From Vaginimicrobium propionicum (GTDB taxonomy: Bacteria > Actinomycetota > Actinomycetes > Propionibacteriales > Propionibacteriaceae), in NCBI RefSeq assembly GCF_900155645.1, contig NZ_LT706985.1, positions 186,001 through 250,000 of the forward strand: DNA of 64,000 nucleotides, given 5' to 3'. The position numbers were made by a program, and so were the translations under genes. Below, in pieces: positions 30,602 through 44,040 of the stretch; position 1 is the first letter of the stretch, and each line of letters begins with the position of its first letter. A model generated the notes under the pieces. That model saw only the letters and a list, made by a program, of their open reading frames with translations, was not told the DNA's origin and did no database searches.

Positions 30602-31105
30602 GTGAATTGTCCATACTGCCACCACCCGGAATCACGCGTCCTTGATTCGCGCGTGGTAGAGGACGGTTTGTCTATTAGACGCCGCCGGGCTTGCCAGGAG
30701 TGCGGTAAGCGTTTCACTACTATCGAGAGAATCCAGCTAGTGATCGTCAAACGTAGTGGGGTCATTGAGCCGTTCAACCGCGAAAAGGTTATTGACGGTG
30801 TCCGTAAAGCGTGCAAAGGTCGGCCGGTCGGTGAGGAGCAACTTGCTAAGCTCGGCCAAACCGTCGAAGAGACTATTCGCTCCACTGGCCAGTCAGAAGT
30901 TCCCAGCGGTCAAGTGGGGCTGGCGATTCTTCGCCCGCTTAGCAAACTTGATCCAGTGGCTTATCTGAGGTTTGCCAGCGTATACAAGAACTATCAAAGC
31001 CTTGATGATTTCTCTAAAGAAATTGATCGAATGAAAACAGAAATAATCGCCGATCTCGCTCAGAGCTCGGTGCCGTCAGTTAACCAGCCGAAAGAAGAAA
31101 AGTAA
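30602..31105 (+). CDS. nrdR: Transcriptional repressor NrdR
   Basis: A 167-residue regulator of ribonucleotide reductase genes. The N-terminal zinc ribbon CPYC...CQEC and the stretch [13 protein letters not shown] lead to an ATP-cone domain (about 49-140, [16 protein letters not shown]). It senses ATP/dATP. I chose GTG at 30602, with AGGAGG nine bases ahead, because the family starts directly at 'M.CP.C'. The stop shares a base with the nrdJ start, so it is an operon. I found no clear NrdR box in the leader. Confidence 0.96.
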
Positions 31106-33960
31106 TGACCGACACCTCTACCGATCAGGTCGACCGTAGTAGCGCACCTGGCTTAACCGTTAAGCGCGCTTTCGCTACGCCTGGAGTTCACCCCTACGAT
31201 GAGGTGACTTGGCAGAAACGCGATGTCGTCCAGACTAACTGGAAGACAGGTGAGGTGGTTTTCAGCCAGCCCGGAGTGGAATTTCCCGATTTCTGGAGCC
31301 AAAACGCCTCAACTATCGTCACCACGAAGTATTTTCGCGGGGCGCTAGGCAGCCCACAACGTGAATCCAGTCTGAAAACGTTGATTGATCGGGTGGTAAA
31401 TAAATATCGCGAAACTGGCGAAAAAGCCGGATACTTCAACACTCATGAAGATGCAGAAGCTTTCGCTGATGATTTAACTTGGTTGTTGGTTCATCAATAT
31501 TTCAGCTTCAATTCGCCGGTTTGGTTTAACGTTGGGACATCTGCAAAACAGCAAGTAAGTGCCTGTTTTATCTTGTCGGTAGAGGATTCAATGGAATCAA
31601 TCCTCAATTGGTATCGCGAAGAAGGCATGATCTTCAAGGGTGGGTCTGGTGCTGGAATTAACTTGTCGAAGATTCGTTCTTCCCATGAATTGCTGCGTTC
31701 TTCAGGCGGCACTGCCTCCGGTCCGGTCAGTTTTATGCGTGGGGCAGATGCGTCGGCAGGAACTATCAAATCCGGTGGCGCTACTAGGCGTGCTGCCAAG
31801 ATGGTTGTGTTGGATATTGACCATCCAGATATCGAAGAGTTTATCGAGACTAAATCTCGCGAGGAAGATAAGATTCGCGCGCTAAGGGACGCCGGATTTG
31901 ACATGGATCTGGGTGGTAAAGATTTCTTTTCTGTTCAGTATCAAAATGCCAATAATTCTGTGCGGGTTACCGATGACTTTATGGATGCGGTAGTAAACCG
32001 CACTAAGTTTGGTTTGACGGCGCGCACTAACGGTGAAGTTGTAGAAGAAGTTGATGCTCGCGAACTTTTCCAAAAGATAGCTAAAGCTGCTTGGGAGTGC
32101 GCAGATCCTGGCGTTCAGTACGATACGACGATTAACCGCTGGCATACCACCCCAAACTCGGGTCGTATTAATGCCTCCAACCCCTGCTCGGAATATATGA
32201 GCTTGGATAATTCTTCATGCAACCTTGCCAGCTTGAATCTGCTGAAATTCTTACGTGAAGATGATGAAACGTTTGAAATTGAGCGTTTCATAAAGGCTGT
32301 CGAATTAATCATCACTGCGATGGATATTTCGATTATTTTTGCTGATTTCCCGACTGAGCCGATCGCTCAAACTACCCGTGATTTCCGGCAATTAGGCATT
32401 GGCTACGCCAACTTGGGCGCCCTGCTAATGGCCTTGGGTAAAGGCTATGATTCCGAGGGCGGGCGTGCTATTGCGGCTGCTATCACTTCGTTGATGACAG
32501 GCACCGCCTATCGGCGCTCGGCCGAGTTAGCTGAAATTGTTGGAGCTTATAAAGGTTACGAAATCAACTCCGAAGCGCACAATCATGTGATGGAGATGCA
32601 TCGTGAGGCTAATCAGGCCATAACGACTTTGACGAAGCTGGATGAAGATATTCGTAAGGCGGCCACTGGCCAATGGAATAAGGTTTGTGAAGCCGGGCCG
32701 GTAATCGGATTCCGCAACGCTCAAGTATCCGTTCTAGCTCCCACCGGCACTATCGGATTCATGATGGATTGCGATACTACCGGCATCGAACCAGATTTCT
32801 CGCTCGTCAAATTCAAGAAATTGGTTGGCGGTGGCTCTATGCAAATCGTAAACCAAACAGTGCCTAGGGCATTGAAGAATTTGGGTTACGACAAGGAAGT
32901 ATCTGACGAAATCGTCAAATATATTGCAGAAAAAGGCAATGTGATTGATGCTCCTGGCTTAAAGACGGAACATTATGAAGTTTTTGATACTGCCATGGGT
33001 GTGCGTTCTATTGAGCCGATGGGCCATGTCAGGATGATGGCTGCGGTCCAGCCGTTCCTTTCTGGTGCAATATCTAAAACCGTTAACCTGCCAGAAAGTG
33101 CGACGGTCGCTGACATTGCTGAGGTATATCTACAGGGCTGGAAACTTGGGTTGAAAGCCATTGCTGTTTATCGGGATAACTGCAAGGTATCTCAACCGTT
33201 GGCGGTAGCCAAGACTGAGGATAAAAAATCTGGCGCCGAGGTTAAAACTGAGGTTCGGGTGGAGTACCGTCCCAGACGGCGTCGTTTGCCGAAGTCCAGA
33301 ATGGGACGAACCACCTCTTTCGCTGTAGGTGGTGCAGAAGGATATATGACATCGGGCGCCTACAATGATGGACGATTAGGCGAGGTTTTCCTGAAACTTG
33401 GCAAACAAGGCTCCACCCTTTCTGGTGTGATGGACGCGTTCTCGATTGCAGTTTCTATCGGGTTGCAGTATGGGGTGCCGTTGACGACCTTCGTCCAGAA
33501 ATTCACGAACCTGAAATTTGAGCCAGCCGGTATGACCGATGACCCAGATATTCGTATCGCTCAATCGGTTATGGACTTCATCTTCCGTAGGCTAGCGCTG
33601 GATTATTTAGATTTCGATGAACGGTCTGAGCTTGGAATTTACACTTCGGCTGAGCGCGCTCACTATGTTGAGACTGGCTCTTATCTTTCTGAGGAAGAAG
33701 AGGCCGAGCTGCCTGAATATCAGCAGCTAAAGAATGACGCTGGTGACAACATGCGTTTCGATGATGCAGGTCCAGTTCAACCCAGCTTGATTTCAGCCAC
33801 GCCAACTTCCGGCAATGCTCACACCACCTCAGAACTGATGGAAGCTATGACCGGTATGGCCTTCGATGCACCATTGTGCATGACCTGCGGGACGAAAATG
33901 CGGCCTTCAGGCTCGTGCTATGTCTGTGAAGGTTGTGGCTCGACCAGCGGTTGCAGCTAA
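31105..33960 (+). CDS. nrdJ: Adenosylcobalamin-dependent ribonucleotide reductase (class II)
   Basis: A 951-residue class II reductase that makes dNTPs from ribonucleotides with a radical from coenzyme B12. Seen: VSACFILSVEDSMES (first redox Cys), FKGGSGAGINLSKIRSS, NPCSEYMSLDNSSCNLASLNL with the active Cys and Glu, LAPTGTIGFMMDCDTTG, and a C-terminal zinc-like CMTCG...CYVCEGCG for reduction. It needs no oxygen, fits an anaerobic or microaerobic life, and requires cobalamin supply. No other reductase lies in the window. Confidence 0.97.
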   Translation: MTDTSTDQVDRSSAPGLTVKRAFATPGVHPYDEVTWQKRDVVQTNWKTGEVVFSQPGVEFPDFWSQNASTIVTTKYFRGALGSPQRESSLKTLIDRVVNKYRETGEKAGYFNTHEDAEAFADDLTWLLVHQYFSFNSPVWFNVGTSAKQQVSACFILSVEDSMESILNWYREEGMIFKGGSGAGINLSKIRSSHELLRSSGGTASGPVSFMRGADASAGTIKSGGATRRAAKMVVLDIDHPDIEEFIETKSREEDKIRALRDAGFDMDLGGKDFFSVQYQNANNSVRVTDDFMDAVVNRTKFGLTARTNGEVVEEVDARELFQKIAKAAWECADPGVQYDTTINRWHTTPNSGRINASNPCSEYMSLDNSSCNLASLNLLKFLREDDETFEIERFIKAVELIITAMDISIIFADFPTEPIAQTTRDFRQLGIGYANLGALLMALGKGYDSEGGRAIAAAITSLMTGTAYRRSAELAEIVGAYKGYEINSEAHNHVMEMHREANQAITTLTKLDEDIRKAATGQWNKVCEAGPVIGFRNAQVSVLAPTGTIGFMMDCDTTGIEPDFSLVKFKKLVGGGSMQIVNQTVPRALKNLGYDKEVSDEIVKYIAEKGNVIDAPGLKTEHYEVFDTAMGVRSIEPMGHVRMMAAVQPFLSGAISKTVNLPESATVADIAEVYLQGWKLGLKAIAVYRDNCKVSQPLAVAKTEDKKSGAEVKTEVRVEYRPRRRRLPKSRMGRTTSFAVGGAEGYMTSGAYNDGRLGEVFLKLGKQGSTLSGVMDAFSIAVSIGLQYGVPLTTFVQKFTNLKFEPAGMTDDPDIRIAQSVMDFIFRRLALDYLDFDERSELGIYTSAERAHYVETGSYLSEEEEAELPEYQQLKNDAGDNMRFDDAGPVQPSLISATPTSGNAHTTSELMEAMTGMAFDAPLCMTCGTKMRPSGSCYVCEGCGSTSGCS

Positions 33961-34022: not shown

Positions 34023-35300
34023 TTATTTCTTTGGCCGCTCAGACTCAAGTCTGAATAGCACCTCACCAGCGTCGTGGACGACGTAGTAATCCGGGTTTTT
34101 CATTAGCTCGGGAATGGTCTTGGGGTCGCGATAGCCGAGATTAATTGATTCGCATACTTCCTTTGGGATTTGAGTGGCCAAAGTGACCTGCAAGCGGCAC
34201 TTTTCTTCGCCGGTTTCGGCATTATAGGTGCCAGCTCCACGTAAGTGGGTTGAGTGGGCTAGTACACCCCATGGTTCGTCCTTAAACTTGTCCCATTGGC
34301 CAACGAAATAGTCGCGGCAGTGATAGCCAATACGATAAATCTGTTCGTGAGCTTCGGAAACCTCAGTGATATGCGGGGCATAGATAATCACCTCGCCACC
34401 GTCAGCTACTGCCGGTTCCGTCTTATAGAAGCCCTTGGCGGCCGTCCAGATGTCGTGATAACGCTCTGGAATTTCAGAGATAACATTCTTCAGTGGCTCG
34501 GCAACATATCTGATGTGAGTTTGGGCGGTGACCTGCGCTTGGTCTGCCCAAGCATCTTCGGGGCTGCCGAAAGCTACCGACTCCAGATAGGATTCATGGG
34601 CTTTAACTACAAAAGCCAGGCAATATTTTTCGCCTGGAATCATTGAGGCGCCCTCATTGATCATCGCGCGGACTGGAGTCACGCCTGGGGTACCGATCAT
34701 TTTTGCTGACGTAATCAATGCGCCTACCCAGTGGGTTAAATTAATTAACTCTTCTTTGGCGCAGCCGGGAATAAAGTATTTATTTCCGCCAGAGATACCA
34801 ACGACCTCGTGCGGCAAGATTGGGCCGATGATGATTTTCACGTCCGCTTCCACCACACGGCGGTTAATCAACACGTCCGAGCCGAGCTTTAGGCGTTTGC
34901 CAGACAATTCGTAAATTCGTTCGGCAGGGATCTCTCCCACACTGACTAGCTCATCATCGTCTTTCCATAGGTGATTGACGATTTCCATGCCAGGGTACAC
35001 CTCATCGAGATTGGCTTTGGCGTCGCCGGCGGTCCAAAGCGCGATCTCATCGGGTTCCATATATTCGTGAGTGCCTAGGGCGATCACCGTGGATAGTTTG
35101 CCGACCCTATCAATAAGGTGTTTATAGGCAACTTTAAGGATTGCTGCTAGTGGGCAGCTTCGGGTGTCATCCGGAATGATTAAGACAACGTTTTTCCCGG
35201 CTACATCGATTTTAGAAAATGCTTCGCCAACAAATCCGTCGAATTCTTCCGGCGTAATTTTGTAGCCAGGCTCACCTAGGCTAGTTAGCTCAATAGTCAT
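34023..35300 (-). CDS. LarA-like nickel-dependent racemase/2-epimerase
   Basis: A 425-residue LarA-family protein (DUF2088 plus C-terminal LarA domain). His164, Lys174 and His190 in PHEVVGISGGNK...LTH have the spacing of His174, Lys184 and His200 of Lactobacillus lactate racemase, where the Lys carries the nickel-pincer cofactor; His78 (ALGTHEY) fits the catalytic His of the N-terminal domain, and DDTRSCP is intact. Relatives racemise or epimerise 2-hydroxy acids, among them gluconate (GntE). Divergent from uxaC-uxuB, so a sugar acid is the likely substrate. ATG at 35300 with AGGAGAG ahead. LarB, LarC and LarE are not in the window. Confidence 0.88.
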   Translation of the reverse strand: MTIELTSLGEPGYKITPEEFDGFVGEAFSKIDVAGKNVVLIIPDDTRSCPLAAILKVAYKHLIDRVGKLSTVIALGTHEYMEPDEIALWTAGDAKANLDEVYPGMEIVNHLWKDDDELVSVGEIPAERIYELSGKRLKLGSDVLINRRVVEADVKIIIGPILPHEVVGISGGNKYFIPGCAKEELINLTHWVGALITSAKMIGTPGVTPVRAMINEGASMIPGEKYCLAFVVKAHESYLESVAFGSPEDAWADQAQVTAQTHIRYVAEPLKNVISEIPERYHDIWTAAKGFYKTEPAVADGGEVIIYAPHITEVSEAHEQIYRIGYHCRDYFVGQWDKFKDEPWGVLAHSTHLRGAGTYNAETGEEKCRLQVTLATQIPKEVCESINLGYRDPKTIPELMKNPDYYVVHDAGEVLFRLESERPKK

Positions 35301-35331
35301 GATTTCTCTCCTGATGATGGCTGAAATCCAC

Positions 35332-35377
35332 CTAACGCGCTTAAGTCTATGCAAAACAATCAGACTTTAGGCGTTAG
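35332..35377. promoter_or_regulatory. Long inverted repeat between larA-like gene and uxaC
   Basis: CTAACGCGCTTAAGTCT (35332-35348) and AGACTTTAGGCGTTAG (35362-35377) form an imperfect inverted repeat with a 13-base spacer, inside the 144-base divergent region. It is a candidate operator for a uronate regulator; the bound protein is unknown and no regulator gene lies next to it. Confidence 0.5.
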
Positions 35378-35444
35378 AACATAGTTTCCGATCAATCATT
35401 GGCAACCGCCAACAAAGACGTAGACAACCCGGAAGAATAGGTAC

Positions 35445-36860
35445 ATGCCTAAACTGACTCTCAATGACGATCGACTTTTTCCGGCTGAACCTAGTCAACG
35501 TGAGTTGACTAGAAAGATCTACGCTCAAACCCGTGATTTACCCATCATTTCCCCGCACGGTCATGTGCCGCCCGCCTGGTTTAGCGAAAATACCTCTTTC
35601 GGGAATCCAACGCAGTTGCTGTTAACCCCTGACCACTATGTCAACCGTATTTTGCACGCCAACGGTGTCGAATTGTGTGATCTAGGTGTGCCCGGCAAGA
35701 CGATGGACGAAGCTGGGAACCGAAAAGCTTGGCGGCTATTCTGCCAGCATTGGACTGACTTCAACGGCACTGCAATGCGCTACTGGATGGTCGACCAATT
35801 GGCCGGTATTTTCGGTGTCACTCAGCGTCCTAGCGCTGAGACTGCCGATGAGATTTATGACCAAATTCAAGCCTGGATTGATGACCCTAATCACCGTCCA
35901 CGTGAATTGATGGATAAATTCAATATTGAGTTCATCGCTACTACTGATGACCCATGCGACGATTTAGAAGACCATCGTAAAATACACCAGAACCAGGCTT
36001 TCAGCTCAAAACACCGGGTAGTGCCAACCTTCCGTCCAGATAAATATTTAGAGCCAGGACGCTCAGACTGGAACGATCTAGTCGACAGTTTAGGTGAGGT
36101 TTCTGGAGTAAACGTCGACACTCTGTCCGGCTATACCGAGGCAATGGAAAATAGACGAGCTTACTTCAAGGCGAATGGGGCTATTAGCACCGACCATTCT
36201 CATGCCGATTTAGACACTAGTGCCCCCGACCAGGCTGAGGCTGCCAAGCTATATGAATTAGCTCGAACCGGTAAAATAAGCCAAGCCCAAGCTGACCAGT
36301 TACGTAAATATTTTGTGTTAGATCAAATCCGGATGGCCACCGAGGATGGGTTGACTATGACCCTCCATCCGGCGGTATTCCGCAATCACGACCAAGAAGC
36401 CTTCTCAACCTATGGTGCTGATGTTGGCGGCGATATCCCTTATGCCCTCGAGGTGACTAAGGCTCTGCGTCCAGCATTGAATAAGTTCGGCAATCATCCC
36501 AACCTCAAGTTGGTGGTATTTACCCTTGATGAGGACGTTTTCAGTCGCGAAATTGCCCCGTTGGCTGGCTATTATCGTTCGCTCTATATTGGGGTTCCGT
36601 GGTGGTTTATCGACGCTCCGGAGTCGATTCTGCGTTACAAGCAGTCGATTACTGAGATGGCCGGATTTAGCCGCACATCCGGAATGATAGATGACACTCG
36701 CGCATTCTGTTCTATACCCGCCCGGCACGACATGTCCCGGCGTCTAGACGCGGTGCACTTAGCCAAGTTGGTTGCTGTTCACCGTCTAGACCTTGACGAA
36801 GCTATCGACCAAGCCATCAGGCTGGTTGTTGACCAACCAAAGAAGGTGTTTAACCTGTGA
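35445..36860 (+). CDS. uxaC: Glucuronate/uronate isomerase
   Basis: A 471-residue UxaC: it isomerises D-glucuronate to D-fructuronate, or D-galacturonate to tagaturonate. ISPHGHVPPAWF near 34-45 has the metal His pair of the amidohydrolase-like fold; FIATTDDPCDDLEDH near 163, TLHPAVFRN near 307 and ARHDMSRRLDAVHLAKLVA near the end are family marks. ATG start with GGAAGA ahead. The stop overlaps uxuB by 4 bases (GTGA), so they form an operon. Confidence 0.95.
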   Translation: MPKLTLNDDRLFPAEPSQRELTRKIYAQTRDLPIISPHGHVPPAWFSENTSFGNPTQLLLTPDHYVNRILHANGVELCDLGVPGKTMDEAGNRKAWRLFCQHWTDFNGTAMRYWMVDQLAGIFGVTQRPSAETADEIYDQIQAWIDDPNHRPRELMDKFNIEFIATTDDPCDDLEDHRKIHQNQAFSSKHRVVPTFRPDKYLEPGRSDWNDLVDSLGEVSGVNVDTLSGYTEAMENRRAYFKANGAISTDHSHADLDTSAPDQAEAAKLYELARTGKISQAQADQLRKYFVLDQIRMATEDGLTMTLHPAVFRNHDQEAFSTYGADVGGDIPYALEVTKALRPALNKFGNHPNLKLVVFTLDEDVFSREIAPLAGYYRSLYIGVPWWFIDAPESILRYKQSITEMAGFSRTSGMIDDTRAFCSIPARHDMSRRLDAVHLAKLVAVHRLDLDEAIDQAIRLVVDQPKKVFNL

Positions 36861-38245
36861 GTAGATTAAATCGTAACGAAAATGGCCGTAAAGCCGCCCC
36901 GATTCGCATAATTCACTTGGGTATCGGTAATTTCACCAGAGCCCACCAAGCCTGGTACACCGAACACGCTAGTGATGCTGATGAGTGGGGCATTGCCGGT
37001 TTCGCTGGACGTACCACCCTTGAGCCTCGCGAATCCCCGCGCGATGACGCACTCGACGCCCAAGAAGGGCTATATCAGTTATGCATTCAGCACCCGGATG
37101 GTGACAAGGTTGAGGTTATTTCTTCCGTGTCGCACACTTTCCGTTCCCATGAGCATGATGCTTGGACGCGGATGTTTAGCGATCCGAATGTCGTTATCGT
37201 TACCTCAACCATCACCGAGGCTGGTTACTGCCGCGACAAGGACGGCAACCTGGATACGGCCAATGAGAATGTTGCCAAAGATATCGAGTTGCTGAAGTCT
37301 GGTGATCTGGATTCGCCAGTATTCTCTGGACCTGGCAAATTCGTTCGCGGCCTTCTGGCTAGGCGCAAAGCCAATGCTGGCCCCATCACCTTCGTGCCTT
37401 GCGATAACGTGCCAGAAAACGGCGAAATGGCGGAGCGAATCATCCGTCAAGCCGCTGAAAAAGTTGATCCCAGCCTGGTTGATTGGATTAATGAAAATGT
37501 CGGTTTCGTCACCACAATGGTTGACCGGATCACCCCGCGTGCCACTGATGAAGACCGTGATCGGGTTGCTGAAGAAACGGGCATCCGTGATGAGGGTCTA
37601 GTCGTTACCGAGCCGTTCGCGGAATGGGTGTTAGCTGGTGAGTTTAAGGCCGGTCGTCCCAAGTGGGAAGCTGTGGGAGCGAAATTTGTTGACGATATCC
37701 TCCCACATGAGATGCGTAAGCTCTATCTGCTTAACGGCTCGCATTCCTTGATGGCCTATGCTGCGTCAATTCTTGGCCACGAAACTGTTTATGACGCTAT
37801 TAGTGATGAAAAGGTCGCCGGCTGGGTCAATGAATGGTGGGATAATGCTGCCGAAATATTGCCGCTACCAGCTAGCGAGATTAATGAATATCGTGCAGCT
37901 TTACTTGAGCGCTATCGCAACCCAAGAATTAAACATTTGCTCGCGCAGATTGCCAATGATGGTACTCAAAAGTTGCCCATTCGTATCGTCCCGACGATTC
38001 AGCATTTCGCTAAAGAAGGCAAGGTTGCTTTGGGTGCCACAAGGGCAGTAGCTGCGTGGACTCTACACTTGCGTGGCATTGGCGCGCCCATCGGTGACGC
38101 TGGTGCTGACGAGTTGAAGCCGTTGGTTGCTGGTAGTTTGGAGGATTCTGTAAAGAATGTTCTGAAATGGCTGAAGATTTCCGATGCCGAAGTAGTTAAG
38201 GCGGTGTTAGCTCAAGCTCAGGAGCTGATTTCCTTAGCCAAATAG
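36857..38245 (+). CDS. uxuB: Mannitol-dehydrogenase family: probable fructuronate reductase
   Basis: A 462-residue long-chain polyol dehydrogenase. LGIGNFTRAHQAWYT at 22-36 is the NAD site and 'F.RAH' family signature; KLYLLNGSHSLMAYAA near 291-306 has the catalytic Lys, Asn and His. The family covers mannitol 2-dehydrogenase, fructuronate reductase and tagaturonate reductase. Directly after uxaC, fructuronate to mannonate reduction is most likely; tagaturonate reduction cannot be excluded. GTG start. No uxuA, kdgK or kdgA follows; a strong terminator closes the unit. Confidence 0.9.
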   Translation: MSRLNRNENGRKAAPIRIIHLGIGNFTRAHQAWYTEHASDADEWGIAGFAGRTTLEPRESPRDDALDAQEGLYQLCIQHPDGDKVEVISSVSHTFRSHEHDAWTRMFSDPNVVIVTSTITEAGYCRDKDGNLDTANENVAKDIELLKSGDLDSPVFSGPGKFVRGLLARRKANAGPITFVPCDNVPENGEMAERIIRQAAEKVDPSLVDWINENVGFVTTMVDRITPRATDEDRDRVAEETGIRDEGLVVTEPFAEWVLAGEFKAGRPKWEAVGAKFVDDILPHEMRKLYLLNGSHSLMAYAASILGHETVYDAISDEKVAGWVNEWWDNAAEILPLPASEINEYRAALLERYRNPRIKHLLAQIANDGTQKLPIRIVPTIQHFAKEGKVALGATRAVAAWTLHLRGIGAPIGDAGADELKPLVAGSLEDSVKNVLKWLKISDAEVVKAVLAQAQELISLAK

Positions 38246-38313: not shown

Positions 38314-39162
38314 TCAGTAACCGATTGACTTTAAGTACTGCCTGGAGTCTTTTATGCAATCTAGTGGGTCACGACCATAGGTCAGATCCTGCTCGATGAA
38401 AAAGAAATCTGCGCCAGCTTTCTCGGCTGCTGGCAGTAATTTCGGCCAGTTCATATTGCCTTGGCCAACCTCAGCGAACTCAGAAATCGATAGGAAAAGG
38501 TTATATCCCTTCTCCATATCTCCTGAACTTAGCGCCTCAATGGCTTCGTTCGGTAGCGCGCCCACACGGAAATCTTTAACGTGGATTAGCTTGCAAACAC
38601 CCGAGTACTGCTCCAGCATCTCAATTGGATCCATGCCGCCGCGCAACACCCAGTGCAGGTCAACCTCGAAGAATAGGTGAGGAGCTACCCTGCGCACGAT
38701 GTCAAAGAGACGTTCGCCATCAAATTTAGCTAGGTCAACGTGGTGATTGTGGTAGCAGAGCGTGATGCCGTCTTTGGCTAGCCGTTCAGCATATGGTTCT
38801 ACTTCGCCTGCCCAAGACTCGCAGGCTTGTTTTGACACCATCGCTGAGAATGGCATCATGCCAATACGGACATAGTTACAATCCAATCGGCGGCAGTCAG
38901 CCACGATTTTGTCGTAGTCGCCTTCTAGGGTGTCCCCGGTTGCGGTCGGCCCGGCATTCAAAGCCACCGACAAGGCACCAACTTTGACGCCTAATTCTTT
39001 GACGCCACGTTCTAGATCAGCAGTATTCTTCTCGTCCATCGGAATCTGCGATACCTCAACGGCGTGCAAATCCATGTCGGCAATCTTTTGCAGGACGGGG
39101 AACATGCCTTCTTTGGCAACCTGATCCTTAAGCATCATCATCTGTACACCAAGTACAGCCAT
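38314..39162 (-). CDS. Sugar phosphate isomerase/epimerase family, TIM barrel (2)
   Basis: A 282-residue xylose-isomerase-like TIM barrel (AP_endonuc_2). Possible metal ligands and substrate residues: CYHNHHVDLAKF near 138, FEVDLHWVLRGG near 167, KLIHVKDFRV near 192 and FFIEQD near 256. Such proteins act as epimerases, dehydratases or ketoglycoside-cleaving enzymes and often pair with Gfo/Idh/MocA oxidoreductases. It is the last of four genes in one operon (42214 to 38314). ATG start with AAAGGA ahead. Substrate unknown. Confidence 0.85.
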   Translation of the reverse strand: MAVLGVQMMMLKDQVAKEGMFPVLQKIADMDLHAVEVSQIPMDEKNTADLERGVKELGVKVGALSVALNAGPTATGDTLEGDYDKIVADCRRLDCNYVRIGMMPFSAMVSKQACESWAGEVEPYAERLAKDGITLCYHNHHVDLAKFDGERLFDIVRRVAPHLFFEVDLHWVLRGGMDPIEMLEQYSGVCKLIHVKDFRVGALPNEAIEALSSGDMEKGYNLFLSISEFAEVGQGNMNWPKLLPAAEKAGADFFFIEQDLTYGRDPLDCIKDSRQYLKSIGY

Positions 39163-39193
39163 ATCTATTCCTTTCAGCCTTTAGTACGTCGGT

Positions 39194-40357
39194 TTAGGAG
39201 CGAGTCTCGAACTTGCCCTCGTCCTTGATACGCTTATTCAGCTCATCAAGGTAGCGATCCTCGTCGAAATTGGTGAGGTCAATTTCTTCCCCGGTCCAAG
39301 CGGAGAGTTGAATACCGTTGGCTAGTCGCACGCCATTGATACCGTCTGAGCCGGGAGCCAACAATTCGGTGCCATTCTTGACGGCAGCAGCAAAGTTCTC
39401 CATAACCTCGCAGTGCTGCTCACCCCACACAGAGCTGTATTCGCGTTCTTCAACATCCCAGAACTCAGAAACATCGAGTTGGCCGCTGAACAGTTTGCCA
39501 ACCTCTTCCATGCCCATATTCTTAGACAGTTCCTGTTCGGCTTGCTTGAGCCTCCAGATGGTGACCTTCTTGGAGTTGTCAACAACGATTTTGCCCTTGT
39601 CGCAAAGGATTTCGAGGCGGTCAGTGCCCGGCATATCGTGGGTGCAAGTGATAAAGGTGCCGGTGGCGCCATTGCCGAAATCGACCAGGGCGTTGACCTC
39701 ATCTTCGGTAGCGATATCGCGCCGGAAACCGAATTGGCACTTGGCGAATACACTCTTAGGGATGCCGCAAATCCACTGCCACAGGTCAAGCTGGTGCGGT
39801 GCCTGGTTTACCAAAACGCCACCGCCTTCACCGCCCCAGGTGGCGCGCCACTCAGACTGGTCGTAATAGCCTTGGGGACGCCACCAGTTAGTGATAATCC
39901 ACGAGGTGTGCCGCAGCTGACCCAATTCGCCGGAATCGAGTAGCGCCTTAATATCCTTATAAAGCTGGTTGGTGCGTTGGTTGAAGAACACGCCAAAAAC
40001 CAGATTCGGCTTCGTCTTAGCGAAGTCGATGACCCGTTGGGCTTGCTTGGTGTAGACAGCTAGCGGCTTTTCTAATAGCGTGTGTACGCCGTGCTCTAGT
40101 GCGTAGATACCCATTTCTGGATGCAGATAGTGGGGGACGGTGGTGACGACAGCGTCTACCTTGCCCGAATCAATCATTTCTTTGTAATCAGTGAAGAACG
40201 GCACGCCTAATTTGTCGGCGTCCGCTTTCTTTTCTTCGAGAATGTCACAGATAGCCGCAACCTCGACGTTGGGGGTGCGTCCGTCAGCAATGAATCCGGC
40301 ATAGGCACCGCCTTCAGCGCCTAGCCCGATAATGCCTAACCGTAATTTGTCACTCAA
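39194..40357 (-). CDS. Gfo/Idh/MocA oxidoreductase (2)
   Basis: A 387-residue NAD(P)-dependent sugar oxidoreductase. Rossmann start GIIGLGAEGGAYAGF at 8-22, the catalytic-Lys motif LLEKPLAVY near 93, and the substrate-site NQAPHQLDLWQW near 183 with Asp/His as in glucose-fructose or inositol dehydrogenases. Members oxidise a sugar hydroxyl, often at C3. A TTG start at 40357 with GGAGG seven bases ahead. Third gene of the operon, 16 bases after the first oxidoreductase gene; the two share little beyond family motifs and may use different substrates. Confidence 0.9.
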   Translation of the reverse strand: MSDKLRLGIIGLGAEGGAYAGFIADGRTPNVEVAAICDILEEKKADADKLGVPFFTDYKEMIDSGKVDAVVTTVPHYLHPEMGIYALEHGVHTLLEKPLAVYTKQAQRVIDFAKTKPNLVFGVFFNQRTNQLYKDIKALLDSGELGQLRHTSWIITNWWRPQGYYDQSEWRATWGGEGGGVLVNQAPHQLDLWQWICGIPKSVFAKCQFGFRRDIATEDEVNALVDFGNGATGTFITCTHDMPGTDRLEILCDKGKIVVDNSKKVTIWRLKQAEQELSKNMGMEEVGKLFSGQLDVSEFWDVEEREYSSVWGEQHCEVMENFAAAVKNGTELLAPGSDGINGVRLANGIQLSAWTGEEIDLTNFDEDRYLDELNKRIKDEGKFETRS

Positions 40358-40373
40358 TTTATTGCCTCCTTGG

Positions 40374-41381
40374 TTAATTGTGATTGGTAAATGCTGGTGA
40401 TTGGTCGTAAATTTTCTTCAAAATTTGCAAAGTTTTCATTGATTCTGCCGGGGTTATCCAGAAAGGCTCAGTATCGTCTAGCTTCTGGTAGAAATCTTCA
40501 ATCAGTAATTGATGTGAAACACCCCAGTAGGTGCGGCCAACACTGGGAGCTTTTCGCTCTTGCCAGTGCTTTTGGCTGCCATCGGCAAACCACACCGTCA
40601 ACCCGTCGCGAATCAGTGCTCGGCCAAGACTGCCGACCACTTCAACTTCTACCGGATGGTTATATGGCATGGTCAGCGAGGCGAAGAACGAGGTTTGGGT
40701 GCCCGATTCATTGGTGAACATAGCTTGGACGCTGTCTTCAACCTCGATGACGTCGCCGAACTTCATGGCGTTGGCTTGCCCTTTTACGTCGATAACTGGC
40801 CCCATTAACCATTGCGCCAAATCAATCGTGTGATATGCCTGGTTAATCATTAGGCCACCACCAGAGCCTTCCCAGGTTCCCCGCCAAGGTTTCGCGTGGT
40901 AATAGTCGGGCGTGCGTGTCCACATTACTTGGGCAGATCCACCTTGGATCTCGCCTAAGACTCCTTCGTCCAGTAATCGTCGTAAGCGTTGGGATGAGAC
41001 GTTATAGCGATTCTGCAGGCATATGCCAATCTTCGAGGTGGCTTTCGCTGCTGCGTCAATAATTCGCTGGCCGTCAGCGATGGTGTGCGCTAGGGGCTTC
41101 TCTAGGATGACGTTTTTGCCGGCTTCTAAAGCTGCTATCGCACAGTCAGCATGGGCAAAATGTGGGGTGGTGATGTGGACAACATCGCAATCGGTTGACT
41201 CCAGCAATTTAGCTATGGAATCAAATCCAACTACGCCAGTTTGGTGCTCAGCTAAGGCAAGCTGGGCAGGGTCGTTATCGCAAACCGCCACCAACTCGAT
41301 GTCGTCTAGGGCGTTGATTGCTTCCAGATGTACCTGGTAGACGTCCCCGCAGCCAACAATGGCTGCTTTTTTTACTGCCAT
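40374..41381 (-). CDS. Gfo/Idh/MocA oxidoreductase (1)
   Basis: A 335-residue member of the same family as the next gene. AIVGCGDVYQVHLEAI at 8-23 binds the cofactor, ILEKPLAHT near 92 holds the catalytic Lys, and INQAYHTIDLAQWLMG near 179 the substrate His/Asp. It overlaps the upstream isomerase gene by 10 bases (ATG start with AGGACA ahead), so the two are translationally coupled. Likely makes a keto-sugar or keto-glycoside for the partner TIM-barrel enzyme. Substrate unknown. Confidence 0.9.
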   Translation of the reverse strand: MAVKKAAIVGCGDVYQVHLEAINALDDIELVAVCDNDPAQLALAEHQTGVVGFDSIAKLLESTDCDVVHITTPHFAHADCAIAALEAGKNVILEKPLAHTIADGQRIIDAAAKATSKIGICLQNRYNVSSQRLRRLLDEGVLGEIQGGSAQVMWTRTPDYYHAKPWRGTWEGSGGGLMINQAYHTIDLAQWLMGPVIDVKGQANAMKFGDVIEVEDSVQAMFTNESGTQTSFFASLTMPYNHPVEVEVVGSLGRALIRDGLTVWFADGSQKHWQERKAPSVGRTYWGVSHQLLIEDFYQKLDDTEPFWITPAESMKTLQILKKIYDQSPAFTNHN

Positions 41382-42214
41382 TGAATGTCCTGCTCTTTAA
41401 ATATGCCGGTCAGCGCGTTATATGCCTTTGTCCAAAGTTCCGGCCCACATAGCCCGCCGAAAGCGTCGAATTGCCCGAGGTGAGGCTCAATGGAGAAGAA
41501 GCCGGAGAAACCGTCCTTGTTGAGTTCGGCTACGACTTCGCGCACTTGACCGTCGCCTTCCCCGCATGGCACGACCTCTTCGACACCTAGCTTCATAGTG
41601 TCAGCCAAGGCATCCTTGCAGTGGATGTAGTCGGTGTATTGGCGCACCTTTGGATAAGCCTCATCGAATGGCTTGACGTGACACTGGACGTAGTTAGCCG
41701 GGTCAAAAATGCCTCGGTAGTGCGGCGAATCAATCGTCTGAATCAAGTCAACGACCCGCTCGGGGGTGTCCCCGTAGATACCTTTCTCATTCTCGTGCAG
41801 CATGGTGACGCCGCCAGCCTCAGCAAGCTCAACAAATTTACGAGTTCTAGCCATCACTTCGTCACGGTATTTGGCTGGGTCTTCGCCCTCAGGCATGAAG
41901 AACGAGAACATGCGGATGTACTTTGTGCCGAAAAATTTCGCTACCTCAACAGCGTGGGCGGCTCTGGCCAAATGTTTGTCGAATGGGTCAGTGATATTTA
42001 TCTTGCCGATATCCGAACCTACCGCCGAGAGTTTGATACCGGCTTTATCCAACATGGACTTGGCTTTGGCTAGCTGCTCGTCGGTGAGGTCGAGGACTTT
42101 AATATCCCAGGCGCTGCGGAACTCAACATGCGATATTTCCAGCTTCTTTAGCAGGTCAATCTGTTCGGCTAGGTCGTGCGATATTTCGTCGGCGAAACCA
42201 GTAAGAGTAAACAA
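41372..42214 (-). CDS. Sugar phosphate isomerase/epimerase family, TIM barrel (1)
   Basis: A 280-residue TIM barrel, first gene of the operon. Candidate metal ligands: MLHENEKGIYGDTPE near 148 (Glu), GIFDPANYVQ near 178 (Asp), YIHCKDALAD near 205 (His) and FSIEPH near 245 (Glu). Together with the coupled oxidoreductase it resembles pairs that oxidise and then rearrange or cleave sugars. TTG start at 42214 with AGGAGG seven bases ahead; no better start exists because the family begins here (MFTLTGFADE). Confidence 0.85.
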   Translation of the reverse strand: MFTLTGFADEISHDLAEQIDLLKKLEISHVEFRSAWDIKVLDLTDEQLAKAKSMLDKAGIKLSAVGSDIGKINITDPFDKHLARAAHAVEVAKFFGTKYIRMFSFFMPEGEDPAKYRDEVMARTRKFVELAEAGGVTMLHENEKGIYGDTPERVVDLIQTIDSPHYRGIFDPANYVQCHVKPFDEAYPKVRQYTDYIHCKDALADTMKLGVEEVVPCGEGDGQVREVVAELNKDGFSGFFSIEPHLGQFDAFGGLCGPELWTKAYNALTGIFKEQDIQWQ

Positions 42215-42475
42215 TGTATAACCTCCTGCTTATGTCTCATAGTCGGCCAAATTACGTACCAGGCGAGACGCATTCTTGATATAAGTAAGCCTAGTCGGGT
42301 GCCTCTAAGGGGTGGGCTGAATAAGATAATTTCATCAGCGAGCCGCTTAGCTAAAGAATGACTCAAATTCAAGAAAATAAAACACCCAAAATGCTAAACT
42401 TTTTTCTTTCGTTTGAAAATCTATCGTTGGTGCTTAAGACGGGATTGTGGTTGCCGTTATTTGTCTATAAATAAA
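42215..42475. promoter_or_regulatory. Leader of the four-gene sugar operon
   Basis: Together with the terminator that follows, this is a 315-base stretch without a gene. It must hold the promoter of the operon starting at 42214. I see an AGGAGG ribosome site at 42222-42227 (minus strand) and A/T-rich DNA near 42360-42420, but no convincing -35/-10 pair or long dyad, and no copy of the inverted repeat found before uxaC. Confidence 0.4.
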
Positions 42476-42509
42476 CTTTGGGAGCCGCGTCGAAACGCAG
42501 CTCCCAAAG
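42476..42509 (-). terminator. Terminator of the GPH symporter gene
   Basis: CTTTGGGAGC pairs with GCTCCCAAAG, with inner GCG/CGC pairing. On the minus strand it is followed by TTTATTTATAG. It lies 20 bases after the symporter stop and separates it from the operon downstream. Confidence 0.85.
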
Positions 42510-42529
42510 AATTAGGAATAATTAGTTGA

Positions 42530-43999
42530 TTACTTCTTAGCTAGTGGATCCTCAGCGTGAACCTCACCCTTGCGGCGGGCGCGCAGGATAGCGGTGTTGG
42601 TCAGCACTGCCTGCTTCTTTAGCGGGTAGAGGAATAACAGCACGATGGCGACTAGTAGGCAGAAAACGCCTGGCAGGACGTTGGTCAGCATGTAGATTCC
42701 GTCGATGGCTGACTGCGACTGAGCCTCGCCCGCCTTAGCGGCAGCGGAATCAAAACCAACCATGGTTAGCGCATGACCGGTCAAGAAGCCAGCGAATGCC
42801 TGACCGAGTTTACGAGCCCAGGAGTAGATGGCATAAGTTGTGCCATCATCACGGTATCCGCTGCGTACTTCCTGATAGTCAATAACGTCAGTAATGAATG
42901 CCCAAATCAGGAAGTTGAAGATAGCAATGCAGAACATGGCCACACCGTAGAAGATGATCCACACCCAAGCATTCTGAATTTTCAGGAAGTAGGCAATCAA
43001 CAGCACTGCGCCGCCGATGAACATCGCTACCACACCGGTTTCAGCCTTGCCGAAGCGTTTGCCCCACATTGGTGCCAACACAATCAAGGCGAAAGCTGGA
43101 ATTAGCGCAACCATCGAAGCTGGGGACTGCAGTTGGCCGTTGCCGAAGTAAGACAACAAGATGTAGGGCAGGATACCGCCGAGGAACATCATGCCAATTA
43201 GCAAGCACAAGGCCGCCAAAACGATAGTTAGCAGTGCTTTGTTGGTGAACAGTGAGCTGAGCATCTTGCCAATAGACTCGCCCTTTTGCTTGTCTTCACC
43301 TTCGGCTGGGGTAGCCACCACGCGCTCTTCCACGTTCATGTAGCACAGTGAGTAGCAGATGACTGCGGCCACCGCGCAAGCTATAGCTGCGATGGTCATC
43401 CTCGGCCCGCTAAGGTTTGAGACACCCTCAAGCGTCTTAGTGTAGACGAATATCGGCACCACGGCGTTCAAAAGCAGGTTTGCTAGGTTGGCGCCAGTTG
43501 AGCGGAATACTGAAAGCTGTGCACGGTCATCAGGGTTGTCAGAGACCACCGACGCCATTGAGCCATAGGGAATGTTGATTGCCGTGTAGCAGAGGGATCC
43601 CCACAGGAAGTAGGTGCAGCACATCCACACCAGGCGGCTGCTGTAGGATTCCCAATCAGCGACGAAAGACATGTACATCAAGGCGGAAGCGACCGCTACT
43701 GGAATAGCGACAATTTTAATCCAGCGCTTGAATTTGGTGCCGCCTTTCTTGATGGGAATTCGGTCGACCAGGATCCCCATGCCAACGTCAGTGAAAGCGT
43801 CAAGGCACCGTGCCACAAGGAAGAGGGTGCCTACGTGAGCGGCCTTGATGCCGACCACATTGGTATAGAACACCATGAAAAACGTAGATTGGAGAATGAA
43901 GGTGAAGTCGTTACCAAAATCACCAAACATGTAGCCGATCTTGTCGCGCATCGAGAACGGTCGTACTTGCCGTTTCGATTCTGTCGGCGTTGAAGACAT
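42530..43999 (-). CDS. GPH-family sugar:cation symporter (MFS)
   Basis: A 489-residue membrane protein with about 12 segments, of the glycoside-pentoside-hexuronide:cation symporter family (MelB/GusB-like). RDKIGYMFGDFGNDFTFILQ near 19 and the loop LDAFTDVGMGILVDR (Asp residues of the cation site) near 66 are typical; so is the late DVIDYQEVRSGYRDDGTTYAIYSWARKLGQ stretch near 367, of which I note Asp, Glu and Arg. It should import a glycoside or hexuronide for the neighbouring enzymes. ATG at 43999 with AGGAG ahead, over 44020. Confidence 0.9.
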   Translation of the reverse strand: MSSTPTESKRQVRPFSMRDKIGYMFGDFGNDFTFILQSTFFMVFYTNVVGIKAAHVGTLFLVARCLDAFTDVGMGILVDRIPIKKGGTKFKRWIKIVAIPVAVASALMYMSFVADWESYSSRLVWMCCTYFLWGSLCYTAINIPYGSMASVVSDNPDDRAQLSVFRSTGANLANLLLNAVVPIFVYTKTLEGVSNLSGPRMTIAAIACAVAAVICYSLCYMNVEERVVATPAEGEDKQKGESIGKMLSSLFTNKALLTIVLAALCLLIGMMFLGGILPYILLSYFGNGQLQSPASMVALIPAFALIVLAPMWGKRFGKAETGVVAMFIGGAVLLIAYFLKIQNAWVWIIFYGVAMFCIAIFNFLIWAFITDVIDYQEVRSGYRDDGTTYAIYSWARKLGQAFAGFLTGHALTMVGFDSAAAKAGEAQSQSAIDGIYMLTNVLPGVFCLLVAIVLLFLYPLKKQAVLTNTAILRARRKGEVHAEDPLAKK

Positions 44000-44040
44000 A
44001 TTAGCTCCTGACACGTCCATGATTAAGCTGTCATTTGGCA

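Follow-up and report, generated by a model that had tools for sequence, protein, structure and literature searches.

How does an organism break down glucuronate when it has the first two enzymes of the usual isomerase route and no recognisable third? The question is raised by a locus of Vaginimicrobium propionicum in the 64,000-nucleotide stretch analysed here (contig NZ_LT706985.1, positions 186,001 to 250,000; hereafter the window), which lies within a genome that is a single contig of 2,010,679 bases and 99.95% complete. At this locus uxaC, for glucuronate isomerase (35445-36860, plus strand; NF002794 505.8 bits against a cut-off of 387), is followed by uxuB (36857-38245, plus strand; Mannitol_dh domains), which encodes a probable fructuronate reductase (D-mannonate oxidoreductase) and whose frame overlaps that of uxaC by 4 bases. 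On the other strand lies a larA-family gene (34023-35300, minus strand) that encodes 425 amino acids from an ATG at 35300, with an alternative TTG-start frame extending to 35354 on the same strand. An earlier note on this DNA held that larA shares its regulatory region with uxaC-uxuB and that its product might convert mannonate to gluconate; the genes are indeed divergent, with a common intergenic region of 144 bp (35301-35444) between them. We propose that the larA-family gene very probably encodes a D-mannonate/D-gluconate 2-epimerase (GntE), dependent on the nickel-pincer nucleotide (NPN), in a glucuronate route. The genes present and missing, the residues, the fold and the recurrent linkage are observations; from them we infer the substrate, the assignment of the kinase, the direction of flux and the regulation in this genome.

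In the proposed route, UxaC would isomerise glucuronate to fructuronate, UxuB would reduce fructuronate to D-mannonate, and LarA/GntE would epimerise D-mannonate at C2 to D-gluconate through a hidden hydride transfer to NPN. This cofactor would be made by LarB, LarC and LarE, and the redox chemistry of the epimerisation would stay hidden within it. An FGGY gluconokinase would then phosphorylate D-gluconate to 6-phosphogluconate, which 6-phosphogluconate dehydrogenase (Gnd) would oxidise to ribulose-5-phosphate and CO2. Such a route uses one NAD(P)H at UxuB and one ATP, and gains one NADPH at Gnd.

The larA product belongs to the LarA superfamily, with Lar_N (PF09861) matched at 80.4 bits against a cut-off of 23.3. 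The nickel-pincer residues pointed out in the earlier note, H164, K174 and H190 (numbered from the ATG), are spaced by 10 and 16 residues as in LarA, where the reference residues are H174, K184 and H200 (PMC7583248). D44, R47, H78 and K289 likewise correspond to D72, R75, H108 and K298 of LarA, and all the residues checked are kept. The usual signature of D-gluconate 2-epimerases is E, V, A and H at the positions of F175, F176, W358 and T359 in LarA (PMC11770544), and the Vaginimicrobium protein carries E165, V166, A348 and H349, the last two positions being set through alignment with 4NAR and not by superposition on LarA; W285 is also there. The same E, V, A, H signature is found in 27 of 27 aligned members of the clade, with the Vaginimicrobium protein counted, by contrast, three LAR-type proteins show F-F or F-M together with Y, and no A-H is aligned in them.

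Both by sequence and by structure, the closest characterised protein is GntE2 of Thermotoga maritima (4NAR), which is the best match in the PDB (191 bits, residues 36-421) ahead of Mar2 at 38.5 bits. An AlphaFold model of the larA protein, made with 36 relatives in the alignment, has a mean pLDDT of 94.7, and in VIA-align it matches 4NAR with a Z of 48.5 (root-mean-square deviation 2.1 over 403 residues, 32% identity), against a Z of 33-35 for lactate racemases (35.0 for the best) and 29 for Mar2; the top 12 structural matches are all LarA-family chains. In phylogenetic reconstruction the GntE-like proteins split from the three LAR-type proteins with a support of 100/100, in a tree that includes no HGR or MAR sequence and in which long branches leave the order among the larA clade, GntE2 and group 18 unsettled. 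Because the GntE2 branch is very long and meets the outgroup, we do not claim GntE2 as sister of the larA clade. The best NCBIfam model for the protein is that of LarAH group 18 (NF052594, putative hexonate epimerase), which has the same signature of E, V, W, A and H, but membership of this group was rejected, since the score of 151.7 bits is far below the cut-off of 500; 4NAR scores likewise low (179), and two group-18 proteins from the bacterial family of Vaginimicrobium reach 575 and 577. A search of viral contigs found no relatives of the larA protein. Thus, the GntE signature and the proximity of GntE2 by sequence and structure lend support to the idea of a mannonate-to-gluconate bypass, and the LarA homologues do include gluconate 2-epimerases, as the earlier note had stated, since mannonate-to-gluconate activity has been measured in vitro for GntE1 and GntE2 (PMC7583248).

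The genes expected for the cofactor are also present. Away from larA, at contig positions 1683293-1686103, larC, larE and larB lie adjacent on one strand, and their products all pass the NCBIfam cut-offs (given in brackets): LarB 263 bits (175), LarE 271 (150), LarC1 180 (90) and LarC2 121 (50).

The last three enzymes of the usual route, UxuA, KdgK and KdgA, had been described as missing from the window's locus, and most of this description extends to the whole genome. Genome-wide searches gave no match for UxuA (PF03786), which is over cut-off in 19 of 97 genomes of the same bacterial family (a set that holds no second genome of the genus), and none for KdgA (PF01081), the aldolase of 2-keto-3-deoxy-6-phosphogluconate (KDPG). 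For KdgK, the kinase of 2-keto-3-deoxygluconate (KDG), all seven PfkB matches in the genome were scanned, one of them pyridoxal kinase, and none reaches the cut-off of a KdgK model; its absence is likely yet unproven, because one PfkB protein (L163; L166:6830-7918) is weakly KDG-kinase-like, at 97.5 bits against a cut-off of 440. L163 is isolated, not beside uronate genes, and is similar to the kinase portion of a fused KDPG aldolase and kinase (167 bits, cut-off 700). A mannonate dehydratase of the ManD type was also considered and rejected: MR_MLE matched two proteins, MenC (371.5 bits, cut-off 288) and a weak one that reads as enolase from its N-terminus, and therefore no ManD-type dehydratase was seen. 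Since neither a mannonate dehydratase nor a KDPG aldolase can be recognised, the cell would have no isomerase-type glucuronate route other than the bypass.

At the lower end of the route, the gene for Gnd is present beside a LacI regulator, and a genome-wide family search for glucose-6-phosphate dehydrogenase (G6PD_C) gave no match. The oxidative pentose phosphate branch thus appears, from these searches, to be without its usual first step. As Gnd is there but Zwf was not found, the only familiar way to 6-phosphogluconate is from gluconate, although a glucose-6-phosphate dehydrogenase of an unrelated type is conceivable. A genome search with TIGR01313 gave no match for a gluconokinase of the GntK type, and the FGGY family was examined instead. 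FGGY_N has seven matches in the genome, the seventh below cut-off, and the other six were classified as one GlpK, two XylB, L008, L010 and L012. L008 is the best gluconokinase candidate, with TIGR01314 at 362.3 bits, 81 bits over its next model; gluconokinase is also the best model for L010, at 181 bits. The product of uxuB is 36% identical to Escherichia coli UxuB as against 28% to UxaB, and all 41 proteins compared (our own and the 40 homologues that score above 350 bits, with those below set aside) resemble UxuB of E. coli more closely than UxaB.

To assess whether this combination of genes recurs, we examined named loci that are the best 80 of at least 556 relatives from a profile scan, a sample biased to near relatives, with 79 loci titled actinobacterial and one, a metagenome-assembled genome (L075), titled Acidobacteria. 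The neighbourhood extended up to 10 kb on each side; 57 loci have at least 5 kb on both sides, and several lie on short contigs. Near larA we find UxaC at 46 loci, UxuB at 45, both at 40 and LacI at 44; LarC and LarE are each found at 28, LarB at 27, Gnd at 22 and an L008-type FGGY kinase at 14. UxuA is near larA at none of the 80. At 32 of the 80 named loci and at 11 of 20 loci from the same bacterial family, larA and uxaC are likewise divergent and lie 76-256 bp apart; one tally is too low for UxaC at L047 and L058, where a long overlapping frame hid the gene. A Knoellia locus (L092) brings nearly everything together: larB, larE, larC, a GPH symporter, two Gfo/Idh/MocA oxidoreductases and two TIM barrel proteins in alternation (GFO2, TIM2, GFO1, TIM1), uxuB, uxaC, larA, lacI, gnd and the kinase. 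That larA is repeatedly found with UxuB, gnd and an FGGY kinase, and that UxuA is lacking, fits a conversion of mannonate to gluconate.

The kinases at these loci bear on the choice of gluconokinase. Besides the 14 of the L008 type, the FGGY kinases comprise one of the L010 type (L143) and one of the XylB type (L132). The 14 and two more from the family loci are closest to L008 among the six FGGY proteins of Vaginimicrobium (42-51% identity), a preference that is partly built in because these 16 were preselected as L008-like. In Brachybacterium, the L010-type kinase (L143:14643, 407 bits) has uxaC, uxuB and larA as neighbours, and L010 is therefore a second gluconokinase candidate in the Vaginimicrobium genome. 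Hence the gluconokinase supposed in the earlier note finds a candidate of the kind that accompanies larA in relatives, though one that remains below the curated cut-off.

The phyletic distribution within the bacterial family gives a similar picture. Of the 38 family genomes with this larA, 37 have UxaC (Fisher P = 2e-11 over the 97 genomes, kinship uncorrected). The 56 genomes with UxaC divide into 32 with larA and without UxuA, 5 with both, 9 with UxuA and without larA, and 10 with neither; a distant LarA homologue is found in one of the nine UxuA-only genomes and, alone, in four of the ten with neither. These counts assume that all 97 genomes, some of them incomplete, are among the 391 searched for larA, whose listing covers only part of the non-matching genomes, and they leave out a weak UxuA match of one genome (G060). 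The same bacterial family also has a second kind of LarA (L149-L152 and L155), of which L149 and L150 pass the group-18 cut-off and L151, L152 and L155 fall with them in the tree; larE is nearby at three of these five loci, and larB at two of those three. Three genomes with this second kind (G002, G020 and G059) have UxaC, without UxuA and without the larA considered here.

Upstream regions of the relatives point to a shared operator. The consensus is the palindrome TGGCAACCGGTTGCCA, scored as at least 11 of 14 matches, and such sites lie upstream of larA in 36 of 100 cases, uxaC in 34 of 62, lacI in 22 of 61, gnd in 8 of 34 and the GPH symporter in 3 of 10, compared with about 1% of shuffled controls (2% for GPH) that preserve single-base content only. 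They are rare upstream of uxuB (2/59), the kinase (0/16), larE (1/30) and larC (2/29). The counts are not independent, as some of the family loci (L046-L065) duplicate the DNA of named loci (e.g. L058 and L068), and the consensus was derived partly from the regions counted. Sites upstream of larA, uxaC, lacI and gnd alike suggest that, in relatives, the two ends of the route are probably under the control of the LacI regulator. Within the window, TTGGCAACCGCCAA (35399-35412, in the larA/uxaC intergenic region) is a weak candidate operator, with one half-site, GGTTGCCA, on the minus strand. This palindrome looked at first like a regulator site, but we do not take it as proof of regulation here: the pattern is unconserved and holds only one half of TGGCAACCGGTTGCCA; a second exact copy lies at 33199, inside the gene at 31105-33960. 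The lacI-gnd pair of Vaginimicrobium has no strong TGGCAACCGGTTGCCA match upstream.

Several observations weigh against this interpretation of larA and of the route. At the locus itself, the TGGCAACCGGTTGCCA consensus is not conserved in the window, where the best score in the intergenic region, with one half-site, ranks 66th. Two steps of the route fall below curated cut-offs: UxuB misses that of PRK15037 (244.9 against 603 bits), with a model for D-arabinitol 4-dehydrogenase scoring slightly higher (259, cut-off 600), and none of the six FGGY proteins examined reaches the TIGR01314 cut-off of 648.55, which two kinases scanned from the clusters of relatives miss as well. L008 is also located apart from larA in its own genome. 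For GntE1 the Km for mannonate was 120 mM, and the study that measured it questioned mannonate as the native substrate (PMC7583248). The claim of a sole route extends to isomerase-type enzymes, with oxidative glucuronate routes lying outside the searches. At 24 of the 80 loci the neighbourhood lacks uxaC, uxuB, gnd and the kinase alike, some of these loci being on short contigs, and six of the 24 are from Kribbella (L099, L105, L110, L116, L119 and L135), close larA relatives; larA in Kribbella may serve another route, contrary to a uniform function. Finally, UxuA and this larA occur together in five family genomes (G015, G038, G071, G085 and G095), and therefore larA is no simple replacement of UxuA. 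These five represent one genus (g16), the bearer of the most similar larA found. At the Kribbella loci, the conserved neighbours of larA include two proteins that resemble, from their sequence starts, FAD-linked oxidases.

An alternative order of steps would phosphorylate mannonate first to 6-phosphomannonate, which a 2-epimerase would convert to 6-phosphogluconate, in which case LarA would have the phosphorylated acid, or some other compound, as its substrate. Mannonate kinase and 6-phosphomannonate 2-epimerase activities are reported for extracts of Lactobacillus suebicus (PMC6978723), and clusters with an FGGY kinase and Gnd beside larA are compatible with either order. However, the measured relatives GntE1 and GntE2 use free mannonate (PMC7583248), the larA protein bears the GntE signature residues, and the part of PMC6978723 consulted names no gene for the phosphomannonate epimerase, and we regard a kinase-first order as very unlikely. 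It is no more credible that LarA epimerises another acid derived from uronates, such as D-glucarate to D-mannarate, which Desguin and colleagues suggested for GntE1 (PMC7583248). The high Km of GntE1 for mannonate and the uronic-acid genomic context of its group (PMC7583248) would agree with this suggestion, as would the 24 loci lacking the uronate genes tested, but the recurrent association with UxuB, gnd and an FGGY kinase, and the lack of UxuA, favour mannonate to gluconate, in searches that did not extend to glucarate enzymes. A passage of glucuronate through KDG, with a mannonate dehydratase and an aldolase that escaped recognition and with larA serving gluconate use only, is extremely improbable. 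The weakly KDG-kinase-like L163 would speak for it, but L163 is not beside uronate genes and no UxuA, PF01081 aldolase or ManD-type enolase was seen genome-wide. None of the observations that the earlier note had named as contrary to its proposal was made, whether a full uxuA-kdgK-kdgA route without a gluconokinase, a lack of larB, larC and larE, or clustering of the protein with a group acting on another substrate.

The conversion of mannonate to gluconate by GntE remains the preferred reading, and a route of this kind is already known. It was earlier proposed for T. maritima, a proposal that PMC6978723 credits to Rodionova 2012, and the activity has been measured for two bacterial GntEs in a study which states that mannonate probably reaches the pentose phosphate pathway by way of GntE2 (PMC7583248). 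The Vaginimicrobium protein resembles GntE2 (LarAH20; Q9WYS3) in its fold, its NPN and catalytic residues, the E at the first specificity position, the W of helix 11 and the A-H of helix 14, and differs at the second specificity position, where it has V and GntE2 has S (E, S, A, H in GntE2). Both genes stand in a uronate context, that of T. maritima lying between those for fructuronate reductase and gluconate kinase according to PMC6978723; unlike Vaginimicrobium, T. maritima has UxuA and KdgA, which served as search controls. GntE1 (LarAH19) of Corynebacterium glutamicum also has a uronic-acid gene context (PMC7583248), and in the control genome of that species UxaC and LarC were matched and UxuA and KdgA were not, as in Vaginimicrobium; unlike here, the Lar_N search gave no match in it. 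The galacturonate pathway of L. suebicus, as given in PMC6978723, similarly joins isomerase steps to 6-phosphogluconate, skips UxuA, KdgK and KdgA and is redox-neutral to ribulose-5-phosphate, but this phosphoketolase-joined pathway puts the kinase before the epimerase, unlike the proposed route.

Among the papers listed, judged by title and abstract start, we found no published account of a larA-uxaC-uxuB-gnd cluster in Actinobacteria, in a search with most subscription journals outside its coverage. What would be new is the recurrent actinobacterial cluster with gnd, the putative operator shared in relatives, and a genome in which the bypass looks obligatory. This provides genomic support from many lineages for a pathway that, as far as we found, rested on the gene order of one hyperthermophile and on in vitro assays, and suggests that the route is recurrent and probably co-regulated in Actinobacteria. 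It bears on the in vivo role of actinobacterial GntE, and nickel supply becomes a testable need for uronate use. A broader reading, on which we are nearly evenly divided with some lean towards doubt, is that in much of Actinomycetota the GntE step may be a standard way of connecting hexuronates to the pentose phosphate pathway, under a dedicated LacI that also controls gnd. In Vaginimicrobium, UxaC-UxuB-GntE-gluconokinase-Gnd might then be the sole oxidative entry to the pentose phosphate pathway, fed by glucuronate or gluconate and not by glucose, with growth on glucuronate depending on nickel.

Beyond uxuB lie five genes on the minus strand. They encode TIM1, a xylose-isomerase-like TIM barrel protein that possibly belongs to the same catabolic locus (38314-39162; PF01261; homologue near larA at 4 of the 80 loci), the Gfo/Idh/MocA oxidoreductases GFO1 (39194-40357; 5/80) and GFO2 (40374-41381; 12/80), a second xylose-isomerase-like TIM barrel protein, TIM2 (41372-42214; PF01261; 11/80), and a GPH-family symporter (42530-44020; TIGR00792 291.3 bits against a cut-off of 231.35; 11/80), a candidate importer of glucuronides or glycosides. 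All or some of these kinds of protein also occur beside larA-uxaC-uxuB at four loci of relatives (L079, L092, L101 and L111). As a guess from their families, the proteins of 38314-44020 may import a glucuronide or another glycoside and open it by oxidation and elimination.

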